Origin: a virus
IMG/VR virus record: IMGVR_UViG_3300034101_004588
Span: 62,001-126,000 of that record
Strand: one strand, 5' to 3'
Length of the DNA stretch: 64,000 nt
The notes under the pieces are model-generated. The model saw nothing but the letters and a program-made list of their open reading frames with translations, searched no databases and had not been told where the DNA came from. Both the position numbers and the translations under genes were made by a program. Shown here one piece after another: positions 19,725 through 59,072 of this stretch (position 1 is the stretch's first letter; each line of letters opens with the position of its first letter).

Positions 19725-21515
19725 GTGAGAAGAATAGTATTTAATAAAATACATATACAAAATTTTCTATCAATAGGTGAAGTCCCGGTTATTATAAATT
19801 TTAATAAAGGTATTTCATTAATAACAGGGAATAATAAAGATAAAGATAGTAAAAATGGTTGTGGAAAGACAGCTATATTAGATGCGTTTTATTGGAGCTT
19901 GTTCGGAGAAACCATCAGAGATCTTAAAAAAGAAAAAATAATTCACAATCAAACTTCTAAAAATTGTTTAGTAGTTTTAGATTTTGAAATTATATCTAAT
20001 AATGAAATTAATAGATATAAAATATCTAGAACCTTAAATCCTAATACAGTCAGTATTTTTCAAGATGATCAAGACATTACTTTATCTTCCATACCCAAAA
20101 ATGACGAATTTATAAAAGAATTAATAGGAGCTAATGAAGAGGTTTTTAAAAATGTTATTTTGATGTCTTTAGACAATACATTACCTTTCATGGCACAAAA
20201 AAAGGTAGATAAAAGAAAGTTTGTAGAAGGAATATTACAGCTTAATATTTTTAGTGATATGCTTTTAGAAATAAGAGCAGATTACAATGAAACTAAAAAA
20301 GAATACGAAATAATATCTTCAAAATTTTTAGAAAAACAAAAATATTATCAAATACAAGAAAATCAACAAAACAAACAAGAGGAAATTAAAAACAATAAAA
20401 TAACAGAATTAAAAAATAAAATAATAAACAATAATAACCATATCAAAAATTTAGAAAAATCAAACATTTCTTTGGAAGACATTCAAAATAAAATACTTAC
20501 AACTGAAAAAAGTATAGAAAAATTAGAAAAAGAGAAAGAAAATGTTAATAAAAAAATATCTAACCAAATTAATTTACAGACTAATACACAACAGCTTATT
20601 AAAGAATTACAATCTCAAAAACAACAATTTTTAAATAAAAATGGTATTTGTCCTACATGCAAACAAAAAATGTCAGAGTTATCTGAACATGAAATAAACG
20701 AACATTCTAAAATTATTAGTGATAAAATAGAAATTAGTAAAAAAGAACTCAACTCGATCGAAGAAAATAAAAACAAAGAACAAAATTTAGAAAATAAAAT
20801 TTCTGAAAAAATAAAAGAATTTAAGAACTCTTTAAAAAATTATTACACAGAATCAACTAACATTTCCAACAGAGACAAAGAAATTTTATCTTTACAAGAA
20901 AGAAATGAGGAATACTTAAAAAATATAAAAGAACTAGAGAATCAACAAGATGAATATACAGAAATTTTGAATAATCTTAAAATAGAAATAAATGAAACAG
21001 AAAATTTTCTTAAGGAACTTCAAAAAAAATTACAGATACTAGAAACTGCTAAATTTGTGGTTTCTGAAGAAGGGGTTAAAACTTCTATTATACATAAAAT
21101 GTTAGCACTGTTAAACCAAAAATTTAATTTGTATCTCCAATGGTTAGAAGCCCCATGTCAAGGAATTTTTAGCGAAACCTTTGAAGAAACCTTAATAAAT
21201 GAACACAAAAAAGAATGTTCTTATTTTAATTTTAGTAGTGGAGAAAGAAAAAGAATAGATTTAGCCATACTTTTTATGTTTCAAGATTTATTAAAAGATC
21301 AAAACGGGGTATGTTATTCTGTGAATATGTATGATGAATTATTTGATTCAGCGTTAGACGAAAACGGAATTAATAAAGTATTAGAAATATTAAAATCTAA
21401 AGAGGATTGCAGTGTTTACATTATTTCTCACAATAAAAATACACAGAAAATAGAGTTTGATAATGTTATAAATTTAGAAAAAAAAGACGGTAAAACAAGC
21501 CTTTTACTTGAATAA
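19725..21515 (+). CDS. gp46: gp46-like recombination ATPase subunit (Rad50/SbcC family)
   Basis: The 596-residue protein (T4 gp46 has 560) starts at GTG. The N-terminal Walker A lies in KNGCGKTAI. A long coiled coil runs through the middle and is split by a zinc hook CPTC (Cys309, Cys312). The C-terminal half has the signature FSSGERKRIDLA and a Walker B MYDELFDSALDE. It pairs with gp47 to resect DNA ends. Gp47 lies upstream, beyond the glycan island. Confidence 0.9.
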   Translation: MRRIVFNKIHIQNFLSIGEVPVIINFNKGISLITGNNKDKDSKNGCGKTAILDAFYWSLFGETIRDLKKEKIIHNQTSKNCLVVLDFEIISNNEINRYKISRTLNPNTVSIFQDDQDITLSSIPKNDEFIKELIGANEEVFKNVILMSLDNTLPFMAQKKVDKRKFVEGILQLNIFSDMLLEIRADYNETKKEYEIISSKFLEKQKYYQIQENQQNKQEEIKNNKITELKNKIINNNNHIKNLEKSNISLEDIQNKILTTEKSIEKLEKEKENVNKKISNQINLQTNTQQLIKELQSQKQQFLNKNGICPTCKQKMSELSEHEINEHSKIISDKIEISKKELNSIEENKNKEQNLENKISEKIKEFKNSLKNYYTESTNISNRDKEILSLQERNEEYLKNIKELENQQDEYTEILNNLKIEINETENFLKELQKKLQILETAKFVVSEEGVKTSIIHKMLALLNQKFNLYLQWLEAPCQGIFSETFEETLINEHKKECSYFNFSSGERKRIDLAILFMFQDLLKDQNGVCYSVNMYDELFDSALDENGINKVLEILKSKEDCSVYIISHNKNTQKIEFDNVINLEKKDGKTSLLLE

Positions 21516-21544: not shown

Positions 21545-22297
21545 ATGAGCGAAGAACAATATCTTTATTTAAGTGACGATAAAGTTTTCTATACAATAGA
21601 AGGGGAAGGAGAGCATGTCGGCAAACCTTCAGTTTTTATGAGATTGGCCATGTGCAATTTGACATGCAATGCCTGGGCTTCAGAAGATTCTCCACATGGT
21701 TGTGATTCTTTTGTTTCTTGGTCAGTTAAAAATAAAATGTCTTTTGATGAAATTTTTGAGATGATGGAAAAAAATAATTACATCACACATTTAGAAAACA
21801 AAGCAATTCTTAAGCTCACTGGTGGTGAACCTCTTATTCAACAAAAACAACTTTTAAAATTTATAAGAGCATTTGTAGAAAAATACGGTTTTACACCAGT
21901 TATAGATTTTGAAACTAATGCAACTTTATTACCAGATCCAAAATGGATTACAACATGGGGTGCAACTTTTACTACGTCTCCTAAATTAACCACAAATGGA
22001 GATCCAGAAGAAAAGACATATAAACCAGAAGTATTAAAGTGGCATGTATTTAATTATTCTGGTTTTAAATTTGTTATTACTTCAGACAGAGACATTGAAG
22101 AAATTTGGCGGAAATATGTAGAAGACAAGGAAGGTATAAATGTTCCTTTAAATCGTATTTGGTTCATGCCATGTTGCGGTTCTAGACAAGAACATGCAGA
22201 TAATGCTGCTGCAGTAGCGGAATACGCAAAAGCTATGCATGTAAATTTTTCGCCTAGATTACAATTGGTAATTTGGGATAAAGCTTTGAAAGTTTAA
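21545..22297 (+). CDS. queE: QueE: 7-carboxy-7-deazaguanine synthase (radical SAM)
   Basis: The 250-residue protein has the QueE start FYTIEGEGEHVGKPSVFMRL, then CNLTC and later CDSF, the LTGGEPL motif (91-97), DFETNAT, and SPKLT. QueE turns CPH4 into 7-carboxy-7-deazaguanine (CDG), the core of queuosine and of modified DNA bases. The three cluster Cys appear to be Cys37, Cys41 and Cys53. In most QueE proteins the last gap is two residues; here it is eleven. It works with FolE2, QueD and a DpdA-like enzyme encoded nearby. Confidence 0.85.
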   Translation: MSEEQYLYLSDDKVFYTIEGEGEHVGKPSVFMRLAMCNLTCNAWASEDSPHGCDSFVSWSVKNKMSFDEIFEMMEKNNYITHLENKAILKLTGGEPLIQQKQLLKFIRAFVEKYGFTPVIDFETNATLLPDPKWITTWGATFTTSPKLTTNGDPEEKTYKPEVLKWHVFNYSGFKFVITSDRDIEEIWRKYVEDKEGINVPLNRIWFMPCCGSRQEHADNAAAVAEYAKAMHVNFSPRLQLVIWDKALKV

Positions 22298-22300
22298 AAT

Positions 22301-23608
22301 ATGGCAATAAAAATTAAAAACTCTAACAATCAACCTAATCAAGCAGTTTTTCAGTATAGTCAAGTTTCTACAGGTTTACCAATGGCTCCAATGGGGATGC
22401 CTTCTAATTTACCTATTCATTATTCCTACGTTACATCTAAACCAGTATATATACCACCCCCACCACCTATAGAAATGGCTGAAGCTCATCTGCCTAGAGT
22501 CTTGAATTATTTTGCAGATTATGGTGGTTGTGGGCATTGGAGAATGATCTGGCCTGAATTTTTATTAAATTTCGGACAAAAGTTAGTTTCTTCCGGAATG
22601 ACGCAGATGATTTTAGATATTAGATTTTATTCAACTTTAAAAGCTGTAAGATTTCAAAGACAGGCAACACCTCATCAAAATGCTTTTATTAAAGAATTAC
22701 AAAAAATCAGACAGCAAACCAAATTGCGTTTAATCTATGAAATAGATGATATTGTTTTTAAAGATGATATTCCAGATTACAACAGATGTAAAGATGCATT
22801 TGTAGATCAAACTATTGTAGATAGTATTTTAGAAATAATGTCAGCAATGGATGAAATAACAGTTACCTGTGATTACATGAAACAATACTATATTAATAAA
22901 ACAGGTAACAAAAATATTACAAAAATACCCAATTATGCACCAAAATTTTGGTTAGACAGATATTATGATCAAGAAAAAATACAAAAGAATTTTGAAAAAA
23001 ATAAAAAGAGACCAAGAATATTATATGCCGGATCTGGTACTCATGTTGATGTATTAAATAGAACAGGTTTTAATGATGATTTCCATCATGTAGTTGATTC
23101 CATTATTAAAGCTCGTAAAAAGTTTAAATTTGTATGGAAAGGGTGTTATCCATTAGCAGTTAAACAATTTATAGAAAATGGAGAAATGGAGTATTTAGAT
23201 TGGTCGCCTTTACCCAGCTATCCTCAAGGTTTAGTTGATGCTAATTGTAATGTTACCTTTGCTTCATTAACTGATAACGTGTTTAACAGATCAAAAAGCA
23301 ATATCAAAATGATAGAAGCAGGAGCATTGGGTTTACCAGGAGCTTATCAAGATATGTGTACTTATGAAGAGGCTCCTGTAAGATTTAAAAGCGGAGATGA
23401 TTTAATAGATCAATTAGAATACATTACTTCGGATGTTTCTCGTTATATGAGATTATCAAAACAAGCCAGAGAGTTTACAGAGAAATTATGGTTAGAAGAT
23501 CATTTAGATGAATATCTAGCCATGTATTTAACTCCGTGGGGATCAAAAGAAAGAAAAGAAATGAGTCCTCTTTTAATTGATAATAACCCCGACCAGAATA
23601 TAAATTGA
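22301..23608 (+). CDS. GT4-like glycosyltransferase
   Basis: The 435-residue protein has a low-complexity N-terminus with a YIPPPPPIE run. A GT-B-like body follows: LPRVLNYFADYGGCGHWRM, YEIDDIVF, ITVTCDYMKQYY, then PRILYAGSGTHVDVL, and IKMIEAGALGLPGAY as the nucleotide-sugar-binding loop. Proteins like this occur in marine T4-like phages. It lies between queE and the DNA polymerase, away from the island, so it may act on DNA or on a virion protein. That is inference. Confidence 0.75.
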   Translation: MAIKIKNSNNQPNQAVFQYSQVSTGLPMAPMGMPSNLPIHYSYVTSKPVYIPPPPPIEMAEAHLPRVLNYFADYGGCGHWRMIWPEFLLNFGQKLVSSGMTQMILDIRFYSTLKAVRFQRQATPHQNAFIKELQKIRQQTKLRLIYEIDDIVFKDDIPDYNRCKDAFVDQTIVDSILEIMSAMDEITVTCDYMKQYYINKTGNKNITKIPNYAPKFWLDRYYDQEKIQKNFEKNKKRPRILYAGSGTHVDVLNRTGFNDDFHHVVDSIIKARKKFKFVWKGCYPLAVKQFIENGEMEYLDWSPLPSYPQGLVDANCNVTFASLTDNVFNRSKSNIKMIEAGALGLPGAYQDMCTYEEAPVRFKSGDDLIDQLEYITSDVSRYMRLSKQAREFTEKLWLEDHLDEYLAMYLTPWGSKERKEMSPLLIDNNPDQNIN

Positions 23609-23632
23609 TTAATTTATTTAAAATCGTATAAT
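23605..23632 (+). promoter_or_regulatory. Sigma70-like promoter upstream of DNA polymerase
   Basis: TTGATT (23605-23610), 16 nt, TATAAT (23627-23632), seven bases before the ATG. A start about seven bases after the -10 box would give a leaderless gp43 transcript. Confidence 0.7.
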
Positions 23633-23639
23633 ATAAAAC

Positions 23640-26201
23640 ATGGCTTGGCGTAATGTTTTTTATGATAATCGTAGTCAGTCGATTCATTTATGGACATGGG
23701 ACGAGAATGGTAATCGCCAGAAATTGATCTCGTCTTATGAACCTAACATTTATATAGAATCTAATAATGGTGAAGATGGTGTATCTATTTTTAATACACC
23801 TTTAAAAAAGATAACTTTTAAAAATCAATTTGAAAGAAATAAATTTGTTAATGAGACACCAATTAAACGTTTGTTTAATAATTTGTCTTGTGAGCAAGAT
23901 TTCTTATTAAGCACTTTTAAAGATGAAGTAAATAAAGACAATTTTGGTAAATATCCTTTAAAAATATATTTTTTAGATATTGAAACCTATAGTCCAAATG
24001 CATTTCCAGTACCAGAAAAAGCAGAAGATCCTATAAATCTTATAACTTTATATGACACTTTATCAAAAAAATATTACACTTGGGGCACAAAAAAATATCA
24101 AAATCAATCAGAAGATGTAGTTTATTTTTATTGTAAAAGTGAAACTACTTTATTAGAAAACTTTTTAAATTTTTTTGAAAAAGATCATCCAGATATTTTA
24201 AGCTCTTGGAATGGTGAAGGATTTGATATACCTTACATAATAAATCGTATTAAAAACATATTAGGCGATGAAGAAAGTAATAGACTGTCTCCAGTACAAA
24301 ACATTTTTTACAGAGAAAATGTAGCTTTAAATAAATTCGGCAAGGTTATTAATAGATATTATATAAGAGGTTTAAGTTGTGTTGACTACATGGAATTGTA
24401 CAAAACCTTTTCTAGAGGAGATAGAGAATCCTATTCTTTAGGATATATAGGACAGTATGAATTGGGAGAGAGTAAAATAGATTATGGAACAATGTCTTTA
24501 CATGAATTAGCAGATAAAGATTGGCAAAAATTTGTAGATTATAACATACAAGACGTAAAATTATTAGTAAAATTAGAAAGTAAATTAAAATTTTTAAAAT
24601 TGATCAGAACTTTATCTTATAAAGGATTTATACCATTTGAACAGTCTTTAGGTAAAGTTTCCATGATTACAGGAGCTGTTGCCCATCAGGCATATAAACA
24701 AGGATATATTATTCCAACATTTAAAAATGATATTGTCAGAGAAGCTTATGAGGGCGGTTATGTGCATGAACCAGAAAGAGGTTTAAGTAAAGCTGTAGTT
24801 GGATATGATGCAAACAGTCTATATCCAAACACTATAATTTCATTAAATCTTTCTCCGGAAACCAAAATAGGTAAAATAGTAAAAATAGAAAACGACGAAT
24901 ATTTTATTAAACTTAATAATGAAAAATTAATATCTTTGCATAAAGAAAAATTTCAGAAACTAGTAGAAAAAGAAAAATTATCAATTTCAAAAGCAAATGT
25001 GTTGTATACTCAAAAATTTAAAGGAGTAATACCCAATTTGATTGATAGGTTATATCAAGAAAGAGTAGAAACCCGTAAAGAGATGTTAGCAAAAGAAAGA
25101 GAATATAAGAAGACCAAAGACATCTCAATTAAAGCTCAAATTGAAAGTTTAGATACACTACAAAACGTATTTAAGTTGACTTTAAATTCTATATATGGTG
25201 TATTTGCACAAAAATTTTCACCATTGTTTGATATTGACCATTCTGCAAGTATTACATTAACAGGCCAAGCAGTTGTTAAACAAGCCTCTGAAATTGTCTA
25301 TCAACAAGCAATTTCTCAGAATGTAAACTGTACTAAAGAAGACATTTACAAATATGGAGACACAGATAGTTGTTATTTTTCTGTATTACCGATATTAAAC
25401 CATTTTAATTTAAATTTATTAAGTGACAATGAAATTAATAAAGATGCTTATAGTCTTATAGAAAAATTAGGAGAACATTTAAACGAAAAAATTACAGAAT
25501 GGGCAAAAAAAGAATTGCATTCAACAGATCCTCGATTTGTTTTTAAAAGAGAATCTATATGTGATGTAGCTTTGTTCATGGAGAAAAAAAGATATATTCT
25601 TCATGTTTTAGACAAAGAAGGAGTTGCAACTAATAAATTTAAATATGTTGGTGTGGAAATAGCTCGTTCTACTATGTCAGAATCAGTCAAAAAAATTATT
25701 AAAAAGATTATAGAATCTGCAATGTTATACAATGACAGAAAAAAATCTAATAATTTATTGCAAGAAGGATATGAAGAATTTAAAAAACTAAGCATAGAAG
25801 ACTTAGCGTTTAGATGTAAAATATCTGATTATGAAAAATACGAATCAAAAATAAAAGAAGATGGAACTTTAGGCAAAGGAACACCTATTCATATTAAAAG
25901 TGCAATTCTTTTTAATAAAATGTTAAAAAAACTTAATATAGACACAGTTTATATGTCTATAGGAAGTGGAACTAAAATTAAATACTTTTATGCAGCTAAA
26001 AATTTATATAATTATAAATCAATGGCTTTTTTAGATGTTTATCCCAAAGAACTTGAAGAAATTATAAAAATTGATTATAAAATGATGTTTAGTAAATTAG
26101 TAGAACCACCTATAAAAAGGCTTTATGAAAGTATAGGATGGCCTCCACCGACAATTGAATCAGAAACTCAAACAGATTTATTTGATTTGTTTGCAATTTA
26201 G
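23640..26201 (+). CDS. gp43: Family B DNA polymerase gp43
   Basis: The 853-residue replicative polymerase (T4 gp43 has 898) has the 3'-5' exonuclease motif FLDIETYS (~110-117), SSWNGEGFDIPYI (Exo II), polymerase motif A YDANSLYPNT (389-398), motif B KLTLNSIYG, and motif C YGDTDS (572-577). The C-terminus ends TDLFDLFAI, a likely tail for binding the gp45 clamp. It is a single uninterrupted gene. Confidence 0.97.
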   Translation: MAWRNVFYDNRSQSIHLWTWDENGNRQKLISSYEPNIYIESNNGEDGVSIFNTPLKKITFKNQFERNKFVNETPIKRLFNNLSCEQDFLLSTFKDEVNKDNFGKYPLKIYFLDIETYSPNAFPVPEKAEDPINLITLYDTLSKKYYTWGTKKYQNQSEDVVYFYCKSETTLLENFLNFFEKDHPDILSSWNGEGFDIPYIINRIKNILGDEESNRLSPVQNIFYRENVALNKFGKVINRYYIRGLSCVDYMELYKTFSRGDRESYSLGYIGQYELGESKIDYGTMSLHELADKDWQKFVDYNIQDVKLLVKLESKLKFLKLIRTLSYKGFIPFEQSLGKVSMITGAVAHQAYKQGYIIPTFKNDIVREAYEGGYVHEPERGLSKAVVGYDANSLYPNTIISLNLSPETKIGKIVKIENDEYFIKLNNEKLISLHKEKFQKLVEKEKLSISKANVLYTQKFKGVIPNLIDRLYQERVETRKEMLAKEREYKKTKDISIKAQIESLDTLQNVFKLTLNSIYGVFAQKFSPLFDIDHSASITLTGQAVVKQASEIVYQQAISQNVNCTKEDIYKYGDTDSCYFSVLPILNHFNLNLLSDNEINKDAYSLIEKLGEHLNEKITEWAKKELHSTDPRFVFKRESICDVALFMEKKRYILHVLDKEGVATNKFKYVGVEIARSTMSESVKKIIKKIIESAMLYNDRKKSNNLLQEGYEEFKKLSIEDLAFRCKISDYEKYESKIKEDGTLGKGTPIHIKSAILFNKMLKKLNIDTVYMSIGSGTKIKYFYAAKNLYNYKSMAFLDVYPKELEEIIKIDYKMMFSKLVEPPIKRLYESIGWPPPTIESETQTDLFDLFAI

Positions 26202-26209
26202 AATATATT
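26182..26209 (+). promoter_or_regulatory. Sigma70-like promoter upstream of dpdA-like gene
   Basis: TTGATT (26182-26187), 16 nt, TATATT (26204-26209), six bases before the ATG. The -35 box lies in the last codons of gp43. Confidence 0.6.
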
Positions 26210-26215
26210 TTTAAT

Positions 26216-27076
26216 ATGAAAATTTCTCATGAAGCTCCTTTATGTTTAATGGAAACATTAAGACCTTTGGTGGACTATGATTATTGCTTAGTACATTTGT
26301 TAGATGATCCAAATGTAGGAGAAGAATACCTACAATACTTTTTAAATTCAAGAACTATAAACCCAAACAGAGAAATTATATTGGATAACAGCATTTATGA
26401 ATTAGGAGAAGCTTATAATTCAGAAAGATATGCTTATTGGATCACACAAATAAATCCTACGCATTATATTATTCCGGATGTTTTTGGAGATGCGGAAAAA
26501 ACTATAGAAAGTTTAGAAAATTGGTACAAAAATTACGGCAAAGAGCTTAAAAAATATAAAACTATAGGTGTTTTACAAGGTTCAAATTATAAAGATTTTA
26601 AAAAATGCTATCAAAAAATACAAAAAAAAGTAGATAAAATAGCAATAAGTTTTGGGTATCCCTATTTTATAAATTTTTGTGAAGAAATTTTAGGATTTTT
26701 AGATTCAGATTGGAGGGATCCCCAGGAAAATTACAGGGCCATTTGTTATGGACATGGCAGACATTTTTTAATCAACGATCTTTTAAAAGACGATATCATA
26801 GATAAAAATAAACCGCACCATCTTTTGGGATGTGGAATTCCTCAAGAATTTTCCAATTACGCATGGAAAAATTATGATTTTATTGAATCTTTAGACACTT
26901 CTCATCCAATTTTAACCGGTCTTGATGAGGTAAAATATGATGAAGAAAATGTATCTTTTTATAAACCTTATTATAAAATGATTGAAAAATTTGAAAACAA
27001 GTTTGATCAAAAACAAATAAAAACAGCTTTAGAAAATGTCAAATACTTTAGATCTCGTATATGTCAGTTGAATTAA
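26216..27076 (+). CDS. dpdA: DpdA-like DNA-guanine transglycosylase (TGT superfamily)
   Basis: The 286-residue protein has a TIM-barrel layout like tRNA-guanine transglycosylases: IILDNSIYELGEA with Asp57, YIIPDVFGD with Asp88, IGVLQGS, IAISFGYPY, HLLGCGIPQEF (202-212), and SLDTSHPI with Asp227 as a candidate nucleophile. It lacks the Cys-rich zinc site of tRNA enzymes. Phage proteins of this kind (DpdA) exchange guanine in DNA for a 7-deazaguanine. The presence of QueE, QueD and FolE2 in the same block supports this. A tRNA substrate is less likely but not ruled out. Confidence 0.7.
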   Translation: MKISHEAPLCLMETLRPLVDYDYCLVHLLDDPNVGEEYLQYFLNSRTINPNREIILDNSIYELGEAYNSERYAYWITQINPTHYIIPDVFGDAEKTIESLENWYKNYGKELKKYKTIGVLQGSNYKDFKKCYQKIQKKVDKIAISFGYPYFINFCEEILGFLDSDWRDPQENYRAICYGHGRHFLINDLLKDDIIDKNKPHHLLGCGIPQEFSNYAWKNYDFIESLDTSHPILTGLDEVKYDEENVSFYKPYYKMIEKFENKFDQKQIKTALENVKYFRSRICQLN

Positions 27077-27711
27077 TATCCATAACCAAACCAGAAATAG
27101 AAGGAATAAATTCTGCAGAAGATTTAATAACCTATTGTGCCAGAGTTAGTAATCCAGATAATCAATTAAATGTTTCTACTAGTTCAAACTTGTTAAAGTA
27201 TCTTATAAAGCATAAACATTGGAGCCCGTTTGAAATGGTTTCAATGTGCGTAAAAATAAAAACCAGCAGAGCTATAGCAGCTCAAATATTACGCCATAGA
27301 AGTTTTAGCTTTCAAGAATTCAGCCAACGATATTCAACAGCAACTGAATTAGAAGAATTACATTTTAGAAAACAAGGTAAAACCAACCGTCAAGTAGGAG
27401 ATGAAGAATTTCCATTAACACAACATTGGGATACTCTTGTACATATTAAAGAAGCTCAAAGAAAGTGTTTAGAAGTTTATAATGAACTTATTAAATGTGG
27501 AGTTGCAAGAGAATGTGCTCGTATGGTTCTTCCTTTAAATACAAGTACAACATTATATATGTCGGGTACTATAAGATCATGGATACATTATTTAGATCTT
27601 AGAACCTCAAAAGACACTCAAAAAGAACATCAAATAATAGCCAATGATATTAAAAAAATTTTTATAGAAAAATTTCCAGCAATTTCTGAGGCTTTGTATG
27701 TTGACAAATAA
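27061..27711 (+). CDS. thyX: Flavin-dependent thymidylate synthase ThyX
   Basis: The 216-residue protein has the ThyX signature RHRxxSxxxxSxR at residues 78-90 (RHRSFSFQEFSQR), with HWSPFEMV before it and RMVLPLNTSTTLYMSG after. ThyX makes dTMP from dUMP with FAD, NADPH and methylene-tetrahydrofolate. It overlaps the DpdA-like gene by 16 bases. In T4 the unrelated ThyA (td) is used, so this is a replacement, common in marine phages. Confidence 0.95.
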   Translation: MSVELISITKPEIEGINSAEDLITYCARVSNPDNQLNVSTSSNLLKYLIKHKHWSPFEMVSMCVKIKTSRAIAAQILRHRSFSFQEFSQRYSTATELEELHFRKQGKTNRQVGDEEFPLTQHWDTLVHIKEAQRKCLEVYNELIKCGVARECARMVLPLNTSTTLYMSGTIRSWIHYLDLRTSKDTQKEHQIIANDIKKIFIEKFPAISEALYVDK

Positions 27712-27728
27712 CTCTTATTGTATATAAT
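27701..27728 (+). promoter_or_regulatory. Sigma70-like promoter with consensus boxes
   Basis: TTGACA (27701-27706), 16 nt, TATAAT (27723-27728). Both boxes match the bacterial consensus fully. The -10 box ends seven bases before the ATG at 27736. It would serve the small gene, uvsX and queD. Confidence 0.75.
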
Positions 27729-27735
27729 ATAAAAT

Positions 27736-28146
27736 ATGAATGAAGAAAACAAAAATAACGTTGTAGTTTTTTTAGACTACGTAGGCAGAACCATCCTCGG
27801 TGAAAAAGTAGAAAATAAAAATGAAAATTTAATTTGTGTAAAAAACCCAGTTATTTTGCATGTAGTTCCAGTTGATCAAGGTGGACGCATGTCAATTCAA
27901 TTGTTACCTCTATTTTTTAGAGAATTTTTGGCAGAAAAAACTGGTGACGTAGTTTTTAATTACAACAAAAATACTATTGTTGAAACAGATATTGAAGCTT
28001 TAGATTTTAGATTATTAGCACAATATTCCCAACTTTTTAATAAAAATAATATATTTGTTCCGCCTAATGCCGGTAATATCATCACTCCAGATCAAACTGC
28101 ATCTGCTCAACCTTCTCCTGGTGTAGTCAAATTGTTTGATGAATAA
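27736..28146 (+). CDS. Conserved hypothetical protein upstream of uvsX
   Basis: The 136-residue protein starts with a strand-rich segment (VVVFLDYVGRTILGEKV, then LICVKNPVILHVVP) that could form a small Sm-like barrel. A disordered Pro/Gln/Thr-rich linker follows. It ends in VVKLFDE, a hydrophobic-acidic tail of the kind that binds sliding clamps. It has the strongest promoter seen in the window and lies just before uvsX, which suggests an early or middle role in replication or recombination. The family is not recognised. Confidence 0.65.
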   Translation: MNEENKNNVVVFLDYVGRTILGEKVENKNENLICVKNPVILHVVPVDQGGRMSIQLLPLFFREFLAEKTGDVVFNYNKNTIVETDIEALDFRLLAQYSQLFNKNNIFVPPNAGNIITPDQTASAQPSPGVVKLFDE

Positions 28147-28149
28147 TTT

Positions 28150-29277
28150 ATGGCTAAAAACAAATTGTTAGATACAGAAGTCGTAGAAGCTTTTAAAGTT
28201 TTAGATGATTTAAATCCGGATGCGGCTTTTCTAAATGAAAATACTTTGTCTCAAGTTGATTCTTGGATAGACACTGGATGCTTAGCTTTAAATACTATTA
28301 TTAGCGGTTCCTTATATAAAGGAATACCTTCAGGCAGAATAATTGGTTTTAGTGGTCCACAAGCTTGTGGTAAAACTTATATTATTAATAAGATAATAGC
28401 AAATGCTCAAAAAGCTGGAAGGCATGCGGTAGTATTTGACACAGAAAATGCAGTAGATAAAGATACAGCAGAAGCATTAGGATGTGATCCTTCTAAGATT
28501 AAATATTGTCCGATTGAAACAGTCGAACAATGTCGAAATCAAGTTTCTGCTTTTTTAGATTCTGTAATAGAAAAGGGATTAAAAGGAAAATTTATTATAG
28601 CTATTGATTCTTTAGGCAATTTAGTTTCAACTAAAGAAATGAATGATGTAGCCGCAGGTAAAGAAGCAATGGACATGGGAACTAGAGCTAAAGGTTTAAA
28701 AAGCATGTTAAGAGTATTGACTCTTAAGGCAGCAAAAGCAGATGTTCCTGTAATTTTTTCTAATCACATTTATGCAAATCCTGGAGATATGTATCCTTCG
28801 TTGGTTAAACAACAGTCTGGAGGATCAGGTCCTCTGTACCTAGCTTCAGTTTTAGTACAAATGGCAGTTAAAAATGAAAAATCATCCGGAGGTCAAAATT
28901 CTCATAAAGATGCTATAGAAGATGTTTCACCTATTGCTAAAGATATTAACGGAGTAACATTAAGAGCTTTAACCATTAAAAACCGATTTGCTCCACCGTA
29001 TTTAGAAACAGAAATGTATTTAAACTTTAAATCTGGTTTAGCAAAATATTCAGGTTTACTAGAAATGGCTTTGGGTTATAATATTGTGATTCAAAACGGA
29101 CCTACTTTTGCTTTGCCAGATGGAACTAAATTAGGTTATTATAAAAATTGGCGTAATGATGAAACTATATGGGAAACTAAAATTTTACCAGAATTAGAAA
29201 AAAAGCTTAAAACAGAATTAACCTATAAAAAAGAAATTAACAATTTCAATGATGTTTCAATCGACGAAAATAATTGA
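28150..29277 (+). CDS. uvsX: UvsX recombinase (RecA family)
   Basis: The 375-residue protein (T4 UvsX has 391) has Walker A GPQACGKT at 69-76, VFDTENAVD, the Walker B IIAIDSLGNL and a QQSGGSG loop. It catalyses strand exchange with UvsY and gp32. It starts four bases after the upstream gene and overlaps queD by about 29 bases at its end. Confidence 0.95.
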   Translation: MAKNKLLDTEVVEAFKVLDDLNPDAAFLNENTLSQVDSWIDTGCLALNTIISGSLYKGIPSGRIIGFSGPQACGKTYIINKIIANAQKAGRHAVVFDTENAVDKDTAEALGCDPSKIKYCPIETVEQCRNQVSAFLDSVIEKGLKGKFIIAIDSLGNLVSTKEMNDVAAGKEAMDMGTRAKGLKSMLRVLTLKAAKADVPVIFSNHIYANPGDMYPSLVKQQSGGSGPLYLASVLVQMAVKNEKSSGGQNSHKDAIEDVSPIAKDINGVTLRALTIKNRFAPPYLETEMYLNFKSGLAKYSGLLEMALGYNIVIQNGPTFALPDGTKLGYYKNWRNDETIWETKILPELEKKLKTELTYKKEINNFNDVSIDENN

Positions 29278-29686
29278 ACTAGGTTCATGTGCTTTTAGAC
29301 AATGGAAAGCAGAAAATACTCATTGTAAATATGTACATGGTTATCGTTTAATGGCTAAATTTTGGTTTGGCTGTTCTGAACTAGATAATAAAAATTGGGT
29401 TGTTAATTTTGGTGGTTTAAAAGAGGTTAAAAAAGTTTTACAAAATCAATTTGATCATACTCTTTGCATAGCTCAAGACGATCCGTTATTGAATATGTTT
29501 AAAGAATTAAACGAATCGAATGGCTGTCAGCTTCGTATTATGGATGGAGTTGGTATAGAAAAAACAGCAGAATGGTGTTTTAAAACAGTTAATCCCATGA
29601 TTAAAGAAATGTCTAATAATCGCTGCTGGTTGGAAAAAGTAGAAGTTTGGGAACATGATTTAAATTCTGCAATTTACAAAGAGTAA
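29249..29686 (+). CDS. queD: QueD-like 6-carboxytetrahydropterin synthase, divergent
   Basis: The 145-residue protein has the QueD/PTPS layout: catalytic Cys26 and His30 in HCKYVHGYR, FDHTLC with Asp69-His70, and VWEH with Glu135-His136. QueD makes CPH4 from dihydroneopterin triphosphate. The first zinc His (usually in a SAAH motif) is replaced by FRQW, and HGH is HGY, so metal binding may differ. Two adjacent ATGs (29249, 29252) are possible starts. It overlaps uvsX. Confidence 0.8.
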   Translation: MMFQSTKIIELGSCAFRQWKAENTHCKYVHGYRLMAKFWFGCSELDNKNWVVNFGGLKEVKKVLQNQFDHTLCIAQDDPLLNMFKELNESNGCQLRIMDGVGIEKTAEWCFKTVNPMIKEMSNNRCWLEKVEVWEHDLNSAIYKE

Positions 29687-29689
29687 ATT

Positions 29690-29717
29690 TTGATTTTTAT
29701 AAAATTTTTGCTATAAT
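29690..29717 (+). promoter_or_regulatory. Sigma70-like promoter upstream of gp41
   Basis: TTGATT (29690-29695), 16 nt, TATAAT (29712-29717), six bases before the GTG start of gp41. Confidence 0.7.
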
Positions 29718-29723
29718 ATAGTA

Positions 29724-31106
29724 GTGAAATCTTTGTCTTTAGATTATCAACTTTTTGAAAAAGTTATAATATATAATGCTATTTTTGATAATTCTTATCT
29801 TGATTCTATAATCAATTATATCAAACCGTCTTATTTTTTAGACGCTAATATTAAAAAATTGTTTGAAAGTTTAATAGAATATTATAAACAACACAATAAG
29901 AGTCCAAATGTTACAGAATTAAAAATACATTTATCTACTCAAGATAAACGCAATGCTTTAAAAGAGGTTTTATTATCTTTTCAGCATATAGATAAAAAAT
30001 ATGACAAAGAGGTATTATTATCAAATACAGAAAAGTTTTTAAAAGAGAAAACCATATATGATACAGTTTTAAAGACATCTGTAGATATACAAACGGGAAC
30101 TATAGATCCAGGAAAAATTTTAGAAGAATTTGAACAAGCTTGTAGTATATCTTTAGTAGATTCCTACGGTTTTGATTATTTAGAATCCATAGATTCTCAT
30201 TGTGAAGATTTACAAAAAGTATTCAAGACCTTGCCTACCAAATGGAAATGGTTGGATGATAAAATAGGTGGGGGTTTAATGGCAGAAGGTAGAGCTTTAT
30301 ATGTATTTTATGGTGCAACAAATGTAGGTAAATCTATTTTTCTCGGAAATCTTGCCACGAACATTTTAAGTCAAAATAAAAGTGTAGTTCTTATATCATT
30401 AGAAATGCCAGAACAGATATATGCCAAACGAATTAGTGCTCAATTATCCCAAATTCCTTTTAATGATTTACCTCATCAAATTACTCCTTTGAAGAGTTTT
30501 TTAGGTGAATATAAATTAAAACACAAAGATGCGAAACTTATTATTAAAGAGTTTCCACCCAAATCTGTATCTCCTAGTCATATAAGATCTTACTTAGAAA
30601 AATTAAAAAGAAGACACGTTAATCCGGATGTTATTATAGTAGATTATATAAATTTGTTAGCACCACCAGAAAGAGGTTTAAATTCGTATGAATCTGTAAA
30701 ACAAATTACAGAGTCACTAAGAGCATTGTCTTATTATTTTAATTGCCCAGTAGTATCAGCAACACAAATCAATAGATCTGGATATGATCAAGCTAATCCT
30801 GGACTAGAATCGACTAGTGAATCCATGGGACTAGCTCATACAGCAGACGCTCAGATATCGATTTGGACAGAAGAAGAAGATTTTGAATTAGGCATTATAC
30901 ACATGGGTATAACCAAAAACCGTTTTGGTCCGAGGGAATGTTCAACAGTTTTGGAAATAGATTATCCTACATTAGCTCTTAAAGATCCTGATGATGTTTC
31001 AAAAAGCTTTACTGTAAAAAGAAACCATCTTCCTGGTAGTCTACAAAATAATATATCAGATACTTTAAAGACTATCGAGAGTATAGGGGAAGCGGTTGAA
31101 GAATAA
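29724..31106 (+). CDS. gp41: Replicative DNA helicase gp41 (DnaB family)
   Basis: The 460-residue protein (T4 gp41 has 475) begins with GTG. Its N-terminal helical domain spans ~1-150. The RecA-like domain has Walker A GATNVGKS at 197-204, VVLISLEMPE, and IIVDYINLL as Walker B, then SATQINRSG. It unwinds DNA ahead of the polymerase. The primase gp61 and clamp loader gp44/gp62 are not in this window. Confidence 0.93.
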   Translation: MKSLSLDYQLFEKVIIYNAIFDNSYLDSIINYIKPSYFLDANIKKLFESLIEYYKQHNKSPNVTELKIHLSTQDKRNALKEVLLSFQHIDKKYDKEVLLSNTEKFLKEKTIYDTVLKTSVDIQTGTIDPGKILEEFEQACSISLVDSYGFDYLESIDSHCEDLQKVFKTLPTKWKWLDDKIGGGLMAEGRALYVFYGATNVGKSIFLGNLATNILSQNKSVVLISLEMPEQIYAKRISAQLSQIPFNDLPHQITPLKSFLGEYKLKHKDAKLIIKEFPPKSVSPSHIRSYLEKLKRRHVNPDVIIVDYINLLAPPERGLNSYESVKQITESLRALSYYFNCPVVSATQINRSGYDQANPGLESTSESMGLAHTADAQISIWTEEEDFELGIIHMGITKNRFGPRECSTVLEIDYPTLALKDPDDVSKSFTVKRNHLPGSLQNNISDTLKTIESIGEAVEE

Positions 31107-31123
31107 CCCTTTATGATTAAATA
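31096..31123 (+). promoter_or_regulatory. Sigma70-like promoter upstream of DHH gene
   Basis: TTGAAG (31096-31101), 16 nt, TAAATA (31118-31123), six bases before the ATG. The -10 box is weaker than in the other members of the family. Confidence 0.45.
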
Positions 31124-31129
31124 TAAGAT

Positions 31130-32017
31130 ATGCACACAAAAACATATCAAGTATTTACCCATAAAGATTTTGATGGGGCTGTAAGCTTGTTGGTTTTTTT
31201 GTGGGCTCGTTCTAAATCTCCAGTACATTTTCAAGAACTTAATAATTTAAATGTAACTGAAAAATTAAACCAATACGCCAATAATACAGCTAACCCTTTT
31301 CCAACTTTAGTATTGGATTTTGCACTTAGACCTGAATTTAAAAATTGTGATCAATCTCATTTTACATTTATAGATCACCACAAATCATCTGAAAATTATT
31401 TAAATACATTTAAAAATTGTAAGGTTTTATACAAAGAATTTTCGTCTAATGCCCGTTGGATGTATAAACTTTTTGAAAAAGATTTAACTCATCTTACTCA
31501 ATCTCAAAAGTATCTTATAGCTTTGGCAGATGATTTTGATTGTTATAAATTACAATTACCACATTCTTATGATTTAAACATATTATTTTGGTCTGAATAT
31601 CGACAAGAGTTTGGAAGATTCATTAAAGATTTTAAAGAAGGTTTTAAAAATTTTTCATCTAGTCAAATTAAAAGAATAGAATCTATTAAAAAGGCAGCAA
31701 AAGCAGAAGCTCAAAAAATTCAAAAGTTTGAAGGAACTATTAAAATAGGTGATACAAATAAATACACTGTAGCAGCCTTAACAGACAATACCACTAATTT
31801 AGTAATGGATGAAATTATAAATGAATATAATCCAGAATTATTCTTTTTTATTAATACTAAATCAGAAAAAGTAAGTTTAAGACAATCTAGAAACAATCCT
31901 ATAGATTTAGGAGCATTTGCAGAAAAAATATGTGAAGGCGGAGGGCATTTTCATTCTGCAGGTGGTAAAATAACGCCTTTATTTTTAGAAATAACTAAAA
32001 ATTTAAAACCTTTATGA
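31130..32017 (+). CDS. DHH-family phosphoesterase (nanoRNase / RecJ-like)
   Basis: The 295-residue protein has HKDFDGA (His11, Asp13, Asp15), LDFA, FIDHH with the DHH triad at 82-84, ADDFD, and a C-terminal GGGHFHSAGG (DHHA1). Members cut short RNA or single-stranded DNA, or pAp, with Mn2+. Its length is close to NrnA-type enzymes and much shorter than RecJ. It follows the replicative helicase, so DNA end trimming, primer removal or nucleotide salvage are all plausible. Confidence 0.8.
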   Translation: MHTKTYQVFTHKDFDGAVSLLVFLWARSKSPVHFQELNNLNVTEKLNQYANNTANPFPTLVLDFALRPEFKNCDQSHFTFIDHHKSSENYLNTFKNCKVLYKEFSSNARWMYKLFEKDLTHLTQSQKYLIALADDFDCYKLQLPHSYDLNILFWSEYRQEFGRFIKDFKEGFKNFSSSQIKRIESIKKAAKAEAQKIQKFEGTIKIGDTNKYTVAALTDNTTNLVMDEIINEYNPELFFFINTKSEKVSLRQSRNNPIDLGAFAEKICEGGGHFHSAGGKITPLFLEITKNLKPL

Positions 32018-32316
32018 TTATTACATCAACCCATCAGTTAGAAAATTTAGTTAATCCTACTATGGGATTAGATGAAAAAGAATTTGAAGAAATAACATTA
32101 AAATTTGGATCTTTTGTATGTATAGCCAAAAACAAAAAAATGAATTTTTTAAATTTTTTAAAATTTATAATCATAGATAAAAAAACTCAAAAAATATATG
32201 CAGAATTACTTGGAGAATCTAATTTTCAGCTTATAATAAGAACATATTTAACTAGTACACCTAACTTCTATAAAAAAATATTCCGATCCAAACACAACCT
32301 TAAAAAACCTCTTTGA
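32014..32316 (+). CDS. Hypothetical protein
   Basis: The 100-residue protein has a short acidic segment (LDEKEFEEITLKFG), a hydrophobic-basic middle and a strongly basic C-terminus (KKIFRSKHNLKK). It overlaps the genes on both sides by 4 bases. In T4 the gene before 59 and 32 is gp33, but no similarity to gp33 is visible. Family not recognised. Confidence 0.55.
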   Translation: MIITSTHQLENLVNPTMGLDEKEFEEITLKFGSFVCIAKNKKMNFLNFLKFIIIDKKTQKIYAELLGESNFQLIIRTYLTSTPNFYKKIFRSKHNLKKPL

Positions 32317-32990
32317 AAATTTCAACCATAGAACAAAACATTTACAACTGTTATTTAAAAGCATTGCGCAAAGGACAACCTTGGCAACCAAGAAAAAATT
32401 TTGACAATATTGATGATAAAACCGCAATATGTCTTTTTAAAATTAAAAATTTTTTATTAAAGTTTAAACACATTCCTTGGGATGATTATTTCAATGCTTA
32501 TTATTACGTTTATCCAGAAGATAAACTTCCGCCTTTAAATTTTTTTACGACTAGAAAAGCTATAAAGTGTTACAATCTTTTTAAAACATCACAAGAAAAT
32601 CAATCTCCTGATTTACAGTTAGATTCAATAAAAGATGGTTTGAAATTTATAGCTCTGTTTTGTTTGCAAAATAATTTGCCGTTAGAAAACTATTTTAAAC
32701 ATAAATCTTGCAGTATGCCAACTTGGTCGCAACATTATAGAGAGAATAAAGTTAATATTTATAGCTTATTGGCTTTGGACAATTTAAATGAATTTTACAA
32801 GCTATCAGAAGAAGAAAAAAATTATTGGGCTCCTAACCTTTTAAACAATTTAGAAGCGTTTAAAACCCGTTTACATAATTGTAAATCAAAACCAACAATT
32901 TTAGAAATGGTAGCTCGCATTAAAAAATTTGTCAATACAGAGTTGACAAAACACAAAATAGATATTAATATTAAACAACAAACCTTATGA
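32313..32990 (+). CDS. Hypothetical protein in the gp59 position
   Basis: The 225-residue, mostly helical and aromatic-rich protein starts with TTG, overlapping the upstream stop as TTGA; there is no in-frame ATG until past residue 130, so the TTG is needed. It lies directly before gp32. In T4 that position holds gp59 (217 residues), which loads gp41 on gp32-coated forks. Size and position fit, but I see no clear residue-level match, so the role is only a suggestion. Confidence 0.5.
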   Translation: MKISTIEQNIYNCYLKALRKGQPWQPRKNFDNIDDKTAICLFKIKNFLLKFKHIPWDDYFNAYYYVYPEDKLPPLNFFTTRKAIKCYNLFKTSQENQSPDLQLDSIKDGLKFIALFCLQNNLPLENYFKHKSCSMPTWSQHYRENKVNIYSLLALDNLNEFYKLSEEEKNYWAPNLLNNLEAFKTRLHNCKSKPTILEMVARIKKFVNTELTKHKIDINIKQQTL

Positions 32991-33838
32991 ATAAATATAC
33001 CTCAACCTTATTTGAATCCATTAAAGAAGCCTTAAACAAAAAAAATAACACAGAAAGCGGTTTTAGAGATTTCATGAAATTGGAAATCGGTAAAACTTAT
33101 GTAGTTCGCTTTATTCCAAATATTGAAGCACCGGAAAGAACTTTCTTCCACTATTACCATCACTTGTGGAAAAGTGCTATTACTAATCAAAATGTATCAG
33201 TTTTATGTCCGGCAACTTACGGAGAAAGATGCCCTATTGATGAATATAGAGCCAAGATTTACCGCACTAACAACGAAGCAGAGATTAAAAGAATTCAACC
33301 TATTAGACGTAATGAAAATTGGTTGGCTAATGTTTATGTTATTAAAGACCCTACAACACCAGAAAATGAAGGACAGATTAAAATTATACGCTTTGGTAAA
33401 CAACTTAACAAAATTGTTACCGATGCAATAAGCGGTGATGAATCAGAAGAGTTTGGTGCTCGTATTTTTGATTTATCAGAAAAGGGATGTAATTTAAAGA
33501 TTAAAGTCGAAGAAAATGAAGGAGGTTATCCAACCTATGTTGCTTCTCGTTTTATGGCAGCTTCTAAAATAGAAGGATTAGAAAATGAGAATGAAATTTA
33601 TAGTGCATTTAAACCTATGGATACCATATTTGAACACAAATCATATGATGCTATTAAAAAGGATTTAAATGTTCACTTTTTAGGACAAGAAGAAACAGAA
33701 GAACCTAAACAAGAAGAGGAAGAATATGTTTCTCCTAAACAAGAAAATGTACAACCAGCAATTGAATCCTCTTCAGAAAATAGTAGTGAAGATTTCAACG
33801 CTGATGATAAAATTCAAGAAATTCTTAAAGATTTGTAA
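32987..33838 (+). CDS. gp32: Single-stranded DNA-binding protein gp32
   Basis: The 283-residue protein (T4 gp32 has 301) has a basic N-terminus for cooperativity, an OB-fold core (KTYVVRFIPN, FFHYYHHLW), and a long acidic C-terminus ending in DDKIQEILKDL. The zinc site appears incomplete: His58/59, Cys74 and Cys82 are present, but the last Cys of the CPxC pair is Asp85 (CPID). It coats single-stranded DNA and contacts UvsX, UvsY and gp43. Confidence 0.9.
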   Translation: MNKYTSTLFESIKEALNKKNNTESGFRDFMKLEIGKTYVVRFIPNIEAPERTFFHYYHHLWKSAITNQNVSVLCPATYGERCPIDEYRAKIYRTNNEAEIKRIQPIRRNENWLANVYVIKDPTTPENEGQIKIIRFGKQLNKIVTDAISGDESEEFGARIFDLSEKGCNLKIKVEENEGGYPTYVASRFMAASKIEGLENENEIYSAFKPMDTIFEHKSYDAIKKDLNVHFLGQEETEEPKQEEEEYVSPKQENVQPAIESSSENSSEDFNADDKIQEILKDL

Positions 33839-33842
33839 TTTT

Positions 33843-34685
33843 ATGCCTAGAATAAAAACCAATAATGATATACCAGACATCCAAAACACTTTGGATGGAT
33901 TTCCTAAGAAATACATTCCTAAAGTAGGATCTCGCAATATTGTAGTACCTATTGAAATAGTTAGAAGAGATGGATCTGTTAATCCTTCTAAAGCAGTTAT
34001 CAGTATGTATACAGATTTAACACCAGAAGTTAAAGGTACTAATATGAGCAGGTATAGAATATTAGTTGAAGAGGTCTTAGCTAATAAAACACATCGTATA
34101 GATGAAGTTATGAAAACTTTATTAGATGAATGTAAAGACCGTCTTAAGTCTAACAATGCTTATGTCAAAATTAAATTTGACTACTTTGTAATGAAAGAAG
34201 CTCCAGTTTCTAAAGTTAAATCTCATATGGATTATAAAGGATCTTTAGAGGGAAGATTAATTAATGGAGAGAAAAGATATTATCTACATGCAAATGTTTT
34301 ATATGCTTCTTTATGCCCATGCTCTAAAGAAATCAGTGATTATGGTGCACATAATCAACAGTCTTATGCCGATGTTACAGTTGAATTGTCAGATGTCGGC
34401 ACCAAAGATAATGTTTATTGGTTTGAAGAGATTGTAGAAGCTGTAGAACGCAGTTGTTCAGCTCCTATAGTAAATGCTTTGAAACGAGTAGATGAAGCTT
34501 ATCAAACTGAATTAATGTATGAAAATCCAGTATTTGTTGAAGACATGGTAAGAAAAGTTGCTGTAGAACTTGATAAAGATTTGGATAAAAGAATTAATGA
34601 TTATCTAGTAATAGTTAATCATTATGAAAGTATTCACAGTTCAGTTGCAGTGAGTGTTATTAACGCTGGAAGAGATTTAAAATAA
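33843..34685 (+). CDS. folE2: GTP cyclohydrolase I, FolE2 type
   Basis: Start chosen at the ATG shortly after the gp32 stop; the frame stays open into gp32 but that part is a shadow. The 280-residue protein has the FolE2 motif SLCPCSKEIS (Cys158, Cys160) and GAHNQQS (168-174). FolE2 makes dihydroneopterin triphosphate from GTP, the first step of the 7-deazaguanine and folate pathways. In this genome QueD, QueE and a DpdA-like enzyme can use its product. FolE2 is not homologous to FolE in sequence and tolerates low zinc. Confidence 0.93.
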   Translation: MPRIKTNNDIPDIQNTLDGFPKKYIPKVGSRNIVVPIEIVRRDGSVNPSKAVISMYTDLTPEVKGTNMSRYRILVEEVLANKTHRIDEVMKTLLDECKDRLKSNNAYVKIKFDYFVMKEAPVSKVKSHMDYKGSLEGRLINGEKRYYLHANVLYASLCPCSKEISDYGAHNQQSYADVTVELSDVGTKDNVYWFEEIVEAVERSCSAPIVNALKRVDEAYQTELMYENPVFVEDMVRKVAVELDKDLDKRINDYLVIVNHYESIHSSVAVSVINAGRDLK

Positions 34686-34686
34686 T

Positions 34687-35130
34687 ATGAATAAAACTGA
34701 TGTTATAGAAGCGGCTTTATTAGCTAAAATGGTAGGCACAGAACTTAATAAAGTAGATAAATCTTTTATGGATAGACCTAACATTCCAGCCAATAAAATT
34801 AATATCAATCAGTTTATATCTCAATCAAATTTAACATCTCCTTCAAAAAGAAAAATATCTCCAGCTTATTTATCAGAAGCAGAAGTACAAAATTTAGTAC
34901 CAGAACCTGTTTCACAATTACCTAATTTAATAACAGAACCGGCACCAGTACAACCATTAGCCAATATTAATCCAATTCAACAAAAGGTTTTGGTTAATAA
35001 TGATTATAATATAGTAGAAGATATCCAAGAGATAAAAAGTGTTTTAATTAAAATTAACAACAATCTACAAAAGATTTCTGGCATGGCTGGTAAATTGTTT
35101 TGTGGTTTAAATAACAAAACAAATGGATAA
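34687..35130 (+). CDS. Hypothetical protein with Pro-rich linker
   Basis: The 147-residue protein has a helical N-terminus (IEAALLAKMVGTEL), a Pro/Gln-rich linker (~65-105, including VPEPVSQLPN), and a C-terminal helix (IVEDIQEIKSVLIKINNNL). It sits two bases after folE2 and overlaps gp45 by 8. Function unknown. Position suggests a replication-associated adaptor. Confidence 0.55.
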   Translation: MNKTDVIEAALLAKMVGTELNKVDKSFMDRPNIPANKININQFISQSNLTSPSKRKISPAYLSEAEVQNLVPEPVSQLPNLITEPAPVQPLANINPIQQKVLVNNDYNIVEDIQEIKSVLIKINNNLQKISGMAGKLFCGLNNKTNG

Positions 35131-35878
35131 CAACCTAAAGTTATCTAAAAATCTTTTAGAAAACTTTTTACGCCCTATTAACAGGTTGACTGAAAGTTGC
35201 GTTTTAAAATTAGATAAAACTCGAATTTACAGTGTTTGTTCTTCATCAGACAACACAGTAATATTATATGTCAATTGTGGTTTAAAAGAAGAAGTAAAAG
35301 ATCAATTAAGGTTTAACATAATTAATATTAAAAAATTTTTATCCGGTTTAGAATGTTTAGAAACTTCAGAAAACGGCGATATAAACATACAATACCATCA
35401 GAATTATATAAAATGTGAATCCTCAGGAAATCAAAATAAAACGTTTTTTAAATATTATCTAGTTGATGATAGTATTGTTAAAGAAGCACCAGTTAATTTG
35501 GAAAAAATAGCAAAATTAAAATTTGATACAGAATTTACTATAAATTTAGAAAATATTAAAAAAATAATGTCTGGATATGCATTTGCAACAGATGTATCTA
35601 AGATATATTTTTATTCAGACAATAGCTCCGTTTATGCTGAGATAAATGATCAAACATTACAAAATGTAGATAATATAACATTAAAAATATCAAATTCTTT
35701 TGAAGGAGAACCTATCAACAATCCTCTTCCAGTAAATATAGAAATCTTTAAAAATTTAACACTTACTAAAAACGGAATTAAGGTTAAAATTAACAATCAA
35801 TATAAAGTTTTAATATTTCAAAATTTAAACAACGAAAATATAGAAGCTAAATACATAGTTTCTGCCCTTGTTAAATGA
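35123..35878 (+). CDS. gp45: Sliding clamp gp45
   Basis: The 251-residue, beta-rich protein (T4 gp45 has 228) fits the T4 clamp fold: a FLRPINRLTESCVLKL start, INIKKFLSGLECL, a central linker, and a second repeat with INLENIKKIMSGYAFA. It encircles DNA as a trimer and tethers gp43. In T4 it also activates late transcription through gp33 and gp55. The clamp loader is not in this window. Confidence 0.85.
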   Translation: MDNNLKLSKNLLENFLRPINRLTESCVLKLDKTRIYSVCSSSDNTVILYVNCGLKEEVKDQLRFNIINIKKFLSGLECLETSENGDINIQYHQNYIKCESSGNQNKTFFKYYLVDDSIVKEAPVNLEKIAKLKFDTEFTINLENIKKIMSGYAFATDVSKIYFYSDNSSVYAEINDQTLQNVDNITLKISNSFEGEPINNPLPVNIEIFKNLTLTKNGIKVKINNQYKVLIFQNLNNENIEAKYIVSALVK

Positions 35879-58881: not shown

Positions 58882-58888
58882 TTATTAC

Positions 58889-59071
58889 ATGAACAATTCT
58901 CCTCAATACCAATCCGTTACTAACCGTCCTATAGGTTGCACTTTTTGCGGTGCAACAGTTAACGGAAGAATAGTAGAAAAAAAAGTTCCTCAAATAGAAC
59001 AAACCATTAAAGAAATACATTGGATTTGTAATAGATGTGGTAATTTAGTAAGAGTTGGCCGTCAAGCGTAA
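58889..59071 (+). CDS. Small zinc-ribbon protein
   Basis: The 60-residue protein has two Cys pairs, CTFC and CNRC, about 28 residues apart, so it is a single zinc ribbon. Such ribbons bind nucleic acid or protein partners. It lies between phoH and a small unknown gene. It is too small for a confident role. Confidence 0.6.
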   Translation: MNNSPQYQSVTNRPIGCTFCGATVNGRIVEKKVPQIEQTIKEIHWICNRCGNLVRVGRQA

Positions 59072-59072
59072 C

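Follow-up and report, generated by a model that had tools for sequence, protein, structure and literature searches.

Phage gene sets comprising FolE, QueD, QueE, QueC and the transglycosylase DpdA are established to yield 2'-deoxy-7-cyano-7-deazaguanosine (dPreQ0) and protection from restriction (PMC6884629). In Campylobacter phages of the CP220 group, heavy 2'-deoxy-7-amido-7-deazaguanosine (dADG) and replacement of deoxyguanosine (dG) were reported; no DpdA was found in these dADG-rich phages and a DpdA-independent route was considered (PMC6884629). A study of far-T4 Bacteroidetes environmental genomes (about 32% GC) describes scattered queF, queE, queD and GTP cyclohydrolase genes (PMC7198788). 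Here, a stretch of 64,000 nucleotides (the window; bases 62001-126000 of the 210,956-base IMG/VR virus record IMGVR_UViG_3300034101_004588) was analyzed. It carries queE, queD, folE2 and a dpdA-like gene, each standing singly between replication genes of T4 type (Table 1). The best explanation of this locus, and very probably the right one, is modification of the phage DNA by DpdA-type base exchange with a 7-deazaguanine.

Flavobacterium phage vB_FspM_immuto (Immutovirus) encodes homologs of DpdA, of the HGY-variant QueD found in the window, and of QueC, QueE, a kinase and a phosphoribosyltransferase. However, these genes lie largely in one region of a PolA-type phage, together with QueF and a formyltransferase and with FolE instead of FolE2; DUF366 was not matched, and no stand-alone class-II glutamine amidotransferase (GATase) was seen in the region examined. 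Campylobacter phage CP220 (Firehammervirus) shares QueD, QueC, FolE and a homolog of the DpdA-like protein (gp056), but its dpdA lies among structural genes beside the kinase gene, no GATase stands beside QueC and DUF366 was not matched. The dG+ system of Escherichia phage 9g (DpdA1, Gat-QueC) has the same FolE, QueD, QueE and QueC chemistry and a class-II GATase tied to QueC; the GATase is fused to QueC there whereas the genes are separate here, and the 9g DpdA is alignable by sequence at the first catalytic motif only. Vibrio phage nt-1 (Straboviridae; DpdA2) is a T4-type phage with a stand-alone GATase gene directly after queC, but its cluster is compact, its transglycosylase belongs to the DpdA2 family and its QueD is not closely related. 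The far-T4 genomes are likewise T4-like and low in GC with scattered que genes, whereas the accessible text names no DpdA, GATase or DUF366 and treats the genes as queuosine biosynthesis (PMC7198788).

The initial annotation had placed QueE, QueD, FolE2 and a DpdA-like transglycosylase in the window, and all four were recovered at these places, the first three by profiles and the last by its TGT fold. Profile matches of the DpdA-like protein were weak (TIGR00449, 0.003; phrog_19058, of unknown function), the Pfam search gave no match to PF01702 (TGT), and sequence searches of the PDB with the protein or its profile matched nothing; the fold search alone succeeded. An AlphaFold (AF2) model built from 45 sequences (pLDDT 92, pTM 0.90) forms an eight-stranded barrel, and in a Foldseek comparison with the PDB all of the best 50 matches were TGTs (best E 6e-8, probability 1.00). 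Both catalytic aspartates of TGT have counterparts in the protein, D57 and D227, which do not vary in 45/45 sequences and line up with the LDSGAF and SCDSSS motifs of the 9g DpdA. Unlike tRNA-TGTs, the protein has no CxCxxC zinc motif. The model thus points to a zinc-less, DpdA-like enzyme of TGT fold, and neither to a tRNA-TGT nor to an unrelated barrel, the two outcomes that would have spoken against the first assignment.

Searching with tblastn matched this protein to 24 isolate records. The immuto protein annotated as 'DNA guanine transglycosylase' (DpdA) is 39-42% identical to it, hypothetical proteins of Campylobacter CP220-type phages 28-35% (by tblastn) and some Bacillus phage proteins 27% over part of the length. 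CP220 gp056 is 35-39% identical and, with 35% identity over 98% of the length (E 2e-31), belongs to the same subfamily. Among named relatives, the immuto and CP220 proteins are the closest. The family places a DpdA relative in the phage group where PMC6884629 saw none. In phages it is encoded alongside preQ0 pathway genes, and its linkage to QueC, QueF, FolE and QueD recurs in dozens of contigs. A DpdA3 subfamily with complete guanine replacement was reportedly named by Cui et al. in 2023, a study cited in PMC13329287, so the point about a CP220-type DpdA is probably not new.

A linear route from GTP to a 7-deazaguanine had been read from the window. Its enzymes are real, but the route needs QueC, which is encoded outside the window; all four preQ0-pathway enzymes (FolE2, QueD, QueE and QueC) are present in the 211-kb record. 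In QueE, cysteines 37, 41 and 53 form a triad of variant CX3CX11C spacing, conserved in 15-16/16 aligned sequences; TIGR03963/TIGR04508 scored below cutoff and the QueE structure 4njg in the PDB was matched at 5.6e-7. The QueD call also held for a real gene (PDB 7v0f, CPH4 synthase, 1e-4), but the window holds a variant copy, and elsewhere the record encodes a second QueD, canonical and bearing the HGH motif. The latter adjoins a phosphoribosyltransferase gene and had no clear counterpart in the related records that were searched. All 21 distinct relatives of the window QueD carry HGY (21/21), and most have FRQW in place of the first zinc histidine, an extra histidine ahead of the catalytic cysteine and another past the terminal glutamate. 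Because this variant is maintained in isolates, where it lies between QueC and FolE, its conservation marks it as a predicted working subfamily or common specialisation and not as local decay. No QueF or formyltransferase homolog was found among the phage's own open reading frames (ORFs), which makes preQ1 types unlikely; the predicted base is preQ0, 7-amido-7-deazaguanine (ADG) or archaeosine (G+).

Two further genes outside the window, where positions labelled G000:C1 are full-record coordinates, were noted: an IMPDH/GMP-reductase-like gene (G000:C1:127259-128281) and the phosphoribosyltransferase gene (G000:C1:132819-133289), which has a homolog in the immuto cluster. Both could possibly serve in salvage of guanine freed by base exchange.

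Relatives of the DpdA-like protein are encoded in 122 IMG/VR stretches, of which 80 were kept for counts, with a T4-like context in 61/80. Adjacent pairs, counted among annotated genes only, were PolB-DpdA (46 loci), gp32-FolE/FolE2 (19), UvsX-QueD (12) and gp46-QueE (10), so that the gene order of the window recurs in related phages. The reading of single genes, outside one operon, between gp46, gp43, uvsX, gp41 and gp45 was borne out by the neighbors, which are conserved. Since the DpdA relatives are only 36-47% identical to the window protein, the scattered arrangement is old. On its 3' side DpdA is followed by ThyX (16 loci, with a formyltransferase in none), by a formyltransferase-kinase-QueF block or by the kinase alone; the tailoring genes beside DpdA are exchanged as blocks. 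Other phages with the same DpdA subfamily have a compact operon FolE-DpdA-formyltransferase-kinase-QueF-QueC-GATase, which shows that dispersal is a trait of the T4-like lineage and not a requirement of the pathway. In the window, the que genes and their neighbors lie on one strand with gaps of -29 to +37 bp; uvsX and queD overlap by 29 bp, and the start of thyX shares 16 bp with the end of dpdA. The folE2 start is most likely at 33843, 5 bp past the gp32 stop, in an ORF open from 33726. These short gaps would fit co-transcription of the que genes with their neighbors. A promoter scan was not above shuffles (113 vs 108), and terminators numbered 7 vs 5. A tie to replication timing, suggested in the initial annotation, is an interpretation, and common descent accounts for the gene order equally well.

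The stand-alone GATase has an N-terminal cysteine and is a regular companion of QueC. Two GATase queries yielded 35 phage loci, one further weak match having been set aside, and in 35/35 the GATase lies directly after QueC or at most one gene away. The same adjacency occurs in Vibrio phage nt-1 and KVP40-type phages, and in one related phage (L121) QueC, GATase and a glycosyltransferase were shifted jointly into the slot between UvsX and gp41. The simplest reading is that the GATase would supply QueC with glutamine-derived ammonia as a split form of Gat-QueC; this becomes more likely because the QueC-GATase pair occurs also with QueF. The idea that a GATase means archaeosine is weakened, since it accompanies QueC in QueF-type clusters too. 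As far as the accessible text of the literature searched goes, the stand-alone GATase is not named as a pathway member. The PF13712 glycosyltransferase travels with QueC and GATase, including in the relocated block (L121 10946-11692), and might act on the modified base.

The enzyme families, the TGT fold with both of its catalytic aspartates, the presence of QueC and GATase in the record and the gene order were computed. From them we infer activity on DNA, the product, the degree of replacement, protection and co-transcription, as follows. FolE2, QueD, QueE and then QueC would convert GTP to a 7-deazaguanine base, with the GATase probably feeding ammonia to QueC. The DpdA-type enzyme would swap guanine in phage DNA for this base, most likely while the DNA is being replicated or afterwards, and the modified guanine would protect the DNA from host nucleases. 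The que genes, each standing alone at a set position among the T4-type replisome genes, are probably transcribed together with them. Several observations weigh against this explanation. Palindrome counts revealed mild restriction-site avoidance with no clear loss. Similarity to the named DpdA1 of 9g was not significant by sequence alone (hhalign of the family against the 9g DpdA alone aligned the first catalytic motif only), so that membership in DpdA rests on fold, residues and context. In the window QueD, two of the three canonical zinc histidines are replaced (HGY for HGH; FRQW at the first histidine). Finally, the record holds 19 tRNA genes, among them those of the four queuosine acceptors with GUN anticodons (Asp, Asn, His and Tyr), which leaves room for a role in tRNA.

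The alternative that survives best, although unlikely, is a modified-dGTP route in which the DpdA-like enzyme would work on nucleotides or nucleosides, followed by phosphorylation by an AAA_28-type kinase and insertion by the polymerase, leading to complete replacement. The two AAA_28 kinases of this phage are homologous to the kinase that accompanies DpdA in 56/80 related loci and also in CP220 and immuto, and the DpdA-like enzyme is compact and devoid of the TGT zinc motif; for Campylobacter phages, such a route had been put forward (PMC6884629). However, TGT-fold enzymes are known to exchange bases in polymers, the kinase does not adjoin dpdA in the ThyX subtype, and the modified-dGTP route was given for phages without a detected DpdA (Hutinet 2019). 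It is less probable still that the genes only raise queuosine precursors for tRNA and leave the DNA unmodified. All four queuosine acceptors in the record would suit this, and tRNA and DNA roles of que genes in T4-like Bacteroidetes viruses were weighed in PMC7198788; but the DpdA-like protein shows neither the PF01702 match nor the zinc motif, no later queuosine enzymes were recognized in a profile scan covering part of the record, and que genes accompany DpdA in all of the subtypes. Very improbable is the view that most pathway genes are relics and that the phage uses host preQ0 or leaves the pathway idle: the altered zinc site of QueD speaks for it, as do some T4-like fragments among the relatives, about 100 kb long, that show DpdA and QueF and no QueC, but every ORF is intact, the radical-SAM cysteines are conserved, and the HGY QueD keeps its other histidines and lies beside QueC or FolE in isolates.

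Besides the GATase, a DUF366 protein may take part in the favored route to DNA modification by base exchange. DUF366 was found in 6/27 related phage records, in five of which it belongs to a block gp61-QueC-(GATase, glycosyltransferase)-DUF366-gp62. In the sixth record it remains beside gp62 while QueC is relocated, and its position in phages alone is therefore no proof of a link to QueC. Among 63 bacterial DUF366 loci, mostly from Gastranaerophilales, QueC lies directly upstream on the same strand in 54, and in three more (WS1, Armatimonadota) QueE adjoins, giving QueC or QueE in 57/63; Bdellovibrionales and Deltaproteobacteria are represented among the loci linked to QueC. In the scan of genomes for DUF366, the phage alignment matched nothing and a bacterial copy worked as the query. 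DUF366 has the fold of biotin and lipoate ligases (2ddz, TM 0.9; next BPL/LplA at about 1e-6), and its invariant D and K align with the D...K pair of the ligases. Replacement of QueD or QueF by DUF366 was rejected, as 16 DUF366 genomes have QueD (16/16), TGT (16/16) and in part QueF (10/16). The same genomes have FolE in 1/16 and FolE2 in 14/16, a skew that may reflect taxonomy. The DUF366 of 'Microcystis phage MaAM05' (MW495066.1) was rejected as phage evidence because the gene is 100% identical to that of Vampirovibrio; the entry, with glyS, fabI and DUF366, resembles a bacterial (Vampirovibrio) genome fragment. The literature searched contained no paper that ties DUF366 to deazaguanines. 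Action on a carboxylate intermediate would be an attractive guess and no more. With evenly divided confidence, we propose that DUF366 is a 7-deazaguanine enzyme acting next to QueC, plausibly on 7-carboxy-7-deazaguanine (CDG) or its adenylate, which is used by queuosine-making bacteria and was recruited together with the QueC-partner GATase by T4-like phages for DNA modification.

The T4-like gene set of the phage, seen in profiles and translations, comprises gp46, gp47, PolB, UvsX, gp41, gp32, a gp45-like protein and a terminase. PolB, gp46, gp41 and gp45 were named from translations and conserved order, and gp32, uvsX and ThyX from family profiles; the gp45-like protein had no family match in the Pfam and PHROG profile searches. 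The best isolate matches of the terminase are only about 36% identical, indicating no close isolate among those compared, and megablast against phages gave no match. The G+C content is 30.9%, and the leaders before start codons are A/T-rich without a Shine-Dalgarno motif. Because of these leaders and of the Flavobacterium phages among its relatives, the host is likely a member of the Bacteroidota. The glycosyltransferase gene between queE and the DNA polymerase gene is kept in 37/80 related loci, and a DHH-family phosphoesterase gene (window 31130-32017) follows gp41 in 16/80. Between gp47 and gp46 stands an insertion (window 11594-19692) of about ten consecutive genes, glycosyltransferase-like or related to these.

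Table 1. Genes of the window and of the remaining record (prefix G000:C1) discussed in the text
Feature	Position	Strand	Basis
gp46-like recombination/repair ATPase, upstream of queE	19725..21515	+	translation, conserved order
QueE-like 7-carboxy-7-deazaguanine synthase, radical SAM	21545..22297	+	phrog_2076 5.9e-39
Glycosyltransferase, between queE and DNA polymerase	22301..23608	+	translation
Family B DNA polymerase (gp43), directly upstream of dpdA	23640..26201	+	translation, conserved adjacency
Putative DpdA-like base-exchange transglycosylase, TGT fold, zinc-less, CP220/immuto type	26216..27076	+	fold, residues, relatives
ThyX thymidylate synthase	27061..27711	+	TIGR02170 7.5e-52
UvsX recombinase	28150..29277	+	phrog_97 2e-59
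QueD variant (FRQW...HC...HGY)	29249..29686	+	phrog_2389 2.3e-34; PF01242 2e-17
gp41-like replicative helicase	29724..31106	+	translation, conserved order
gp32-like ssDNA-binding protein, directly upstream of folE2	32987..33838	+	PF08804 4.9e-18
FolE2 GTP cyclohydrolase	33843..34685	+	PF02649 5.8e-66
gp45-like sliding clamp (predicted)	35123..35878	+	first reading, conserved position
AAA_28 kinases (thymidylate/deoxynucleoside-kinase-like), two	G000:C1:16535-17146 and 58624-59262
DUF366	G000:C1:53543-54115 (L005 13543-14115)	-	PF04017 2e-20
Class-II glutamine amidotransferase, stand-alone, N-terminal Cys	G000:C1:54118-54768 (L005 14118-14768)	-	PF13522
Glycosyltransferase near QueC	G000:C1:54770-55480		PF13712
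QueC	G000:C1:55465-56163	-	PF06508 3e-58; outside window
Second QueD, canonical, HGH motif	G000:C1:133267-133815	-	sequence motif
GUN-anticodon tRNAs Tyr, Asp, His, Asn	L008 2594-2676, 13041-13117, 14686-14758; L009 18216-18290

The pathway itself is a known phage strategy, to which the fixed slots between replication genes and two partner genes are added here; the literature searched gave no account of the lineage layout, of the blocks that alternate, of the split GATase or of the DUF366 link. With the proposed system, modification of DNA by 7-deazaguanines would reach into a widespread T4-like lineage whose replisome genes are interspersed with those of the pathway. Two partner genes follow from it, the stand-alone GATase accompanying QueC and DUF366, and the linkage of DUF366 to QueC in bacteria offers a role that can be tested, the first for this family, whose structure is solved and whose function is unknown.

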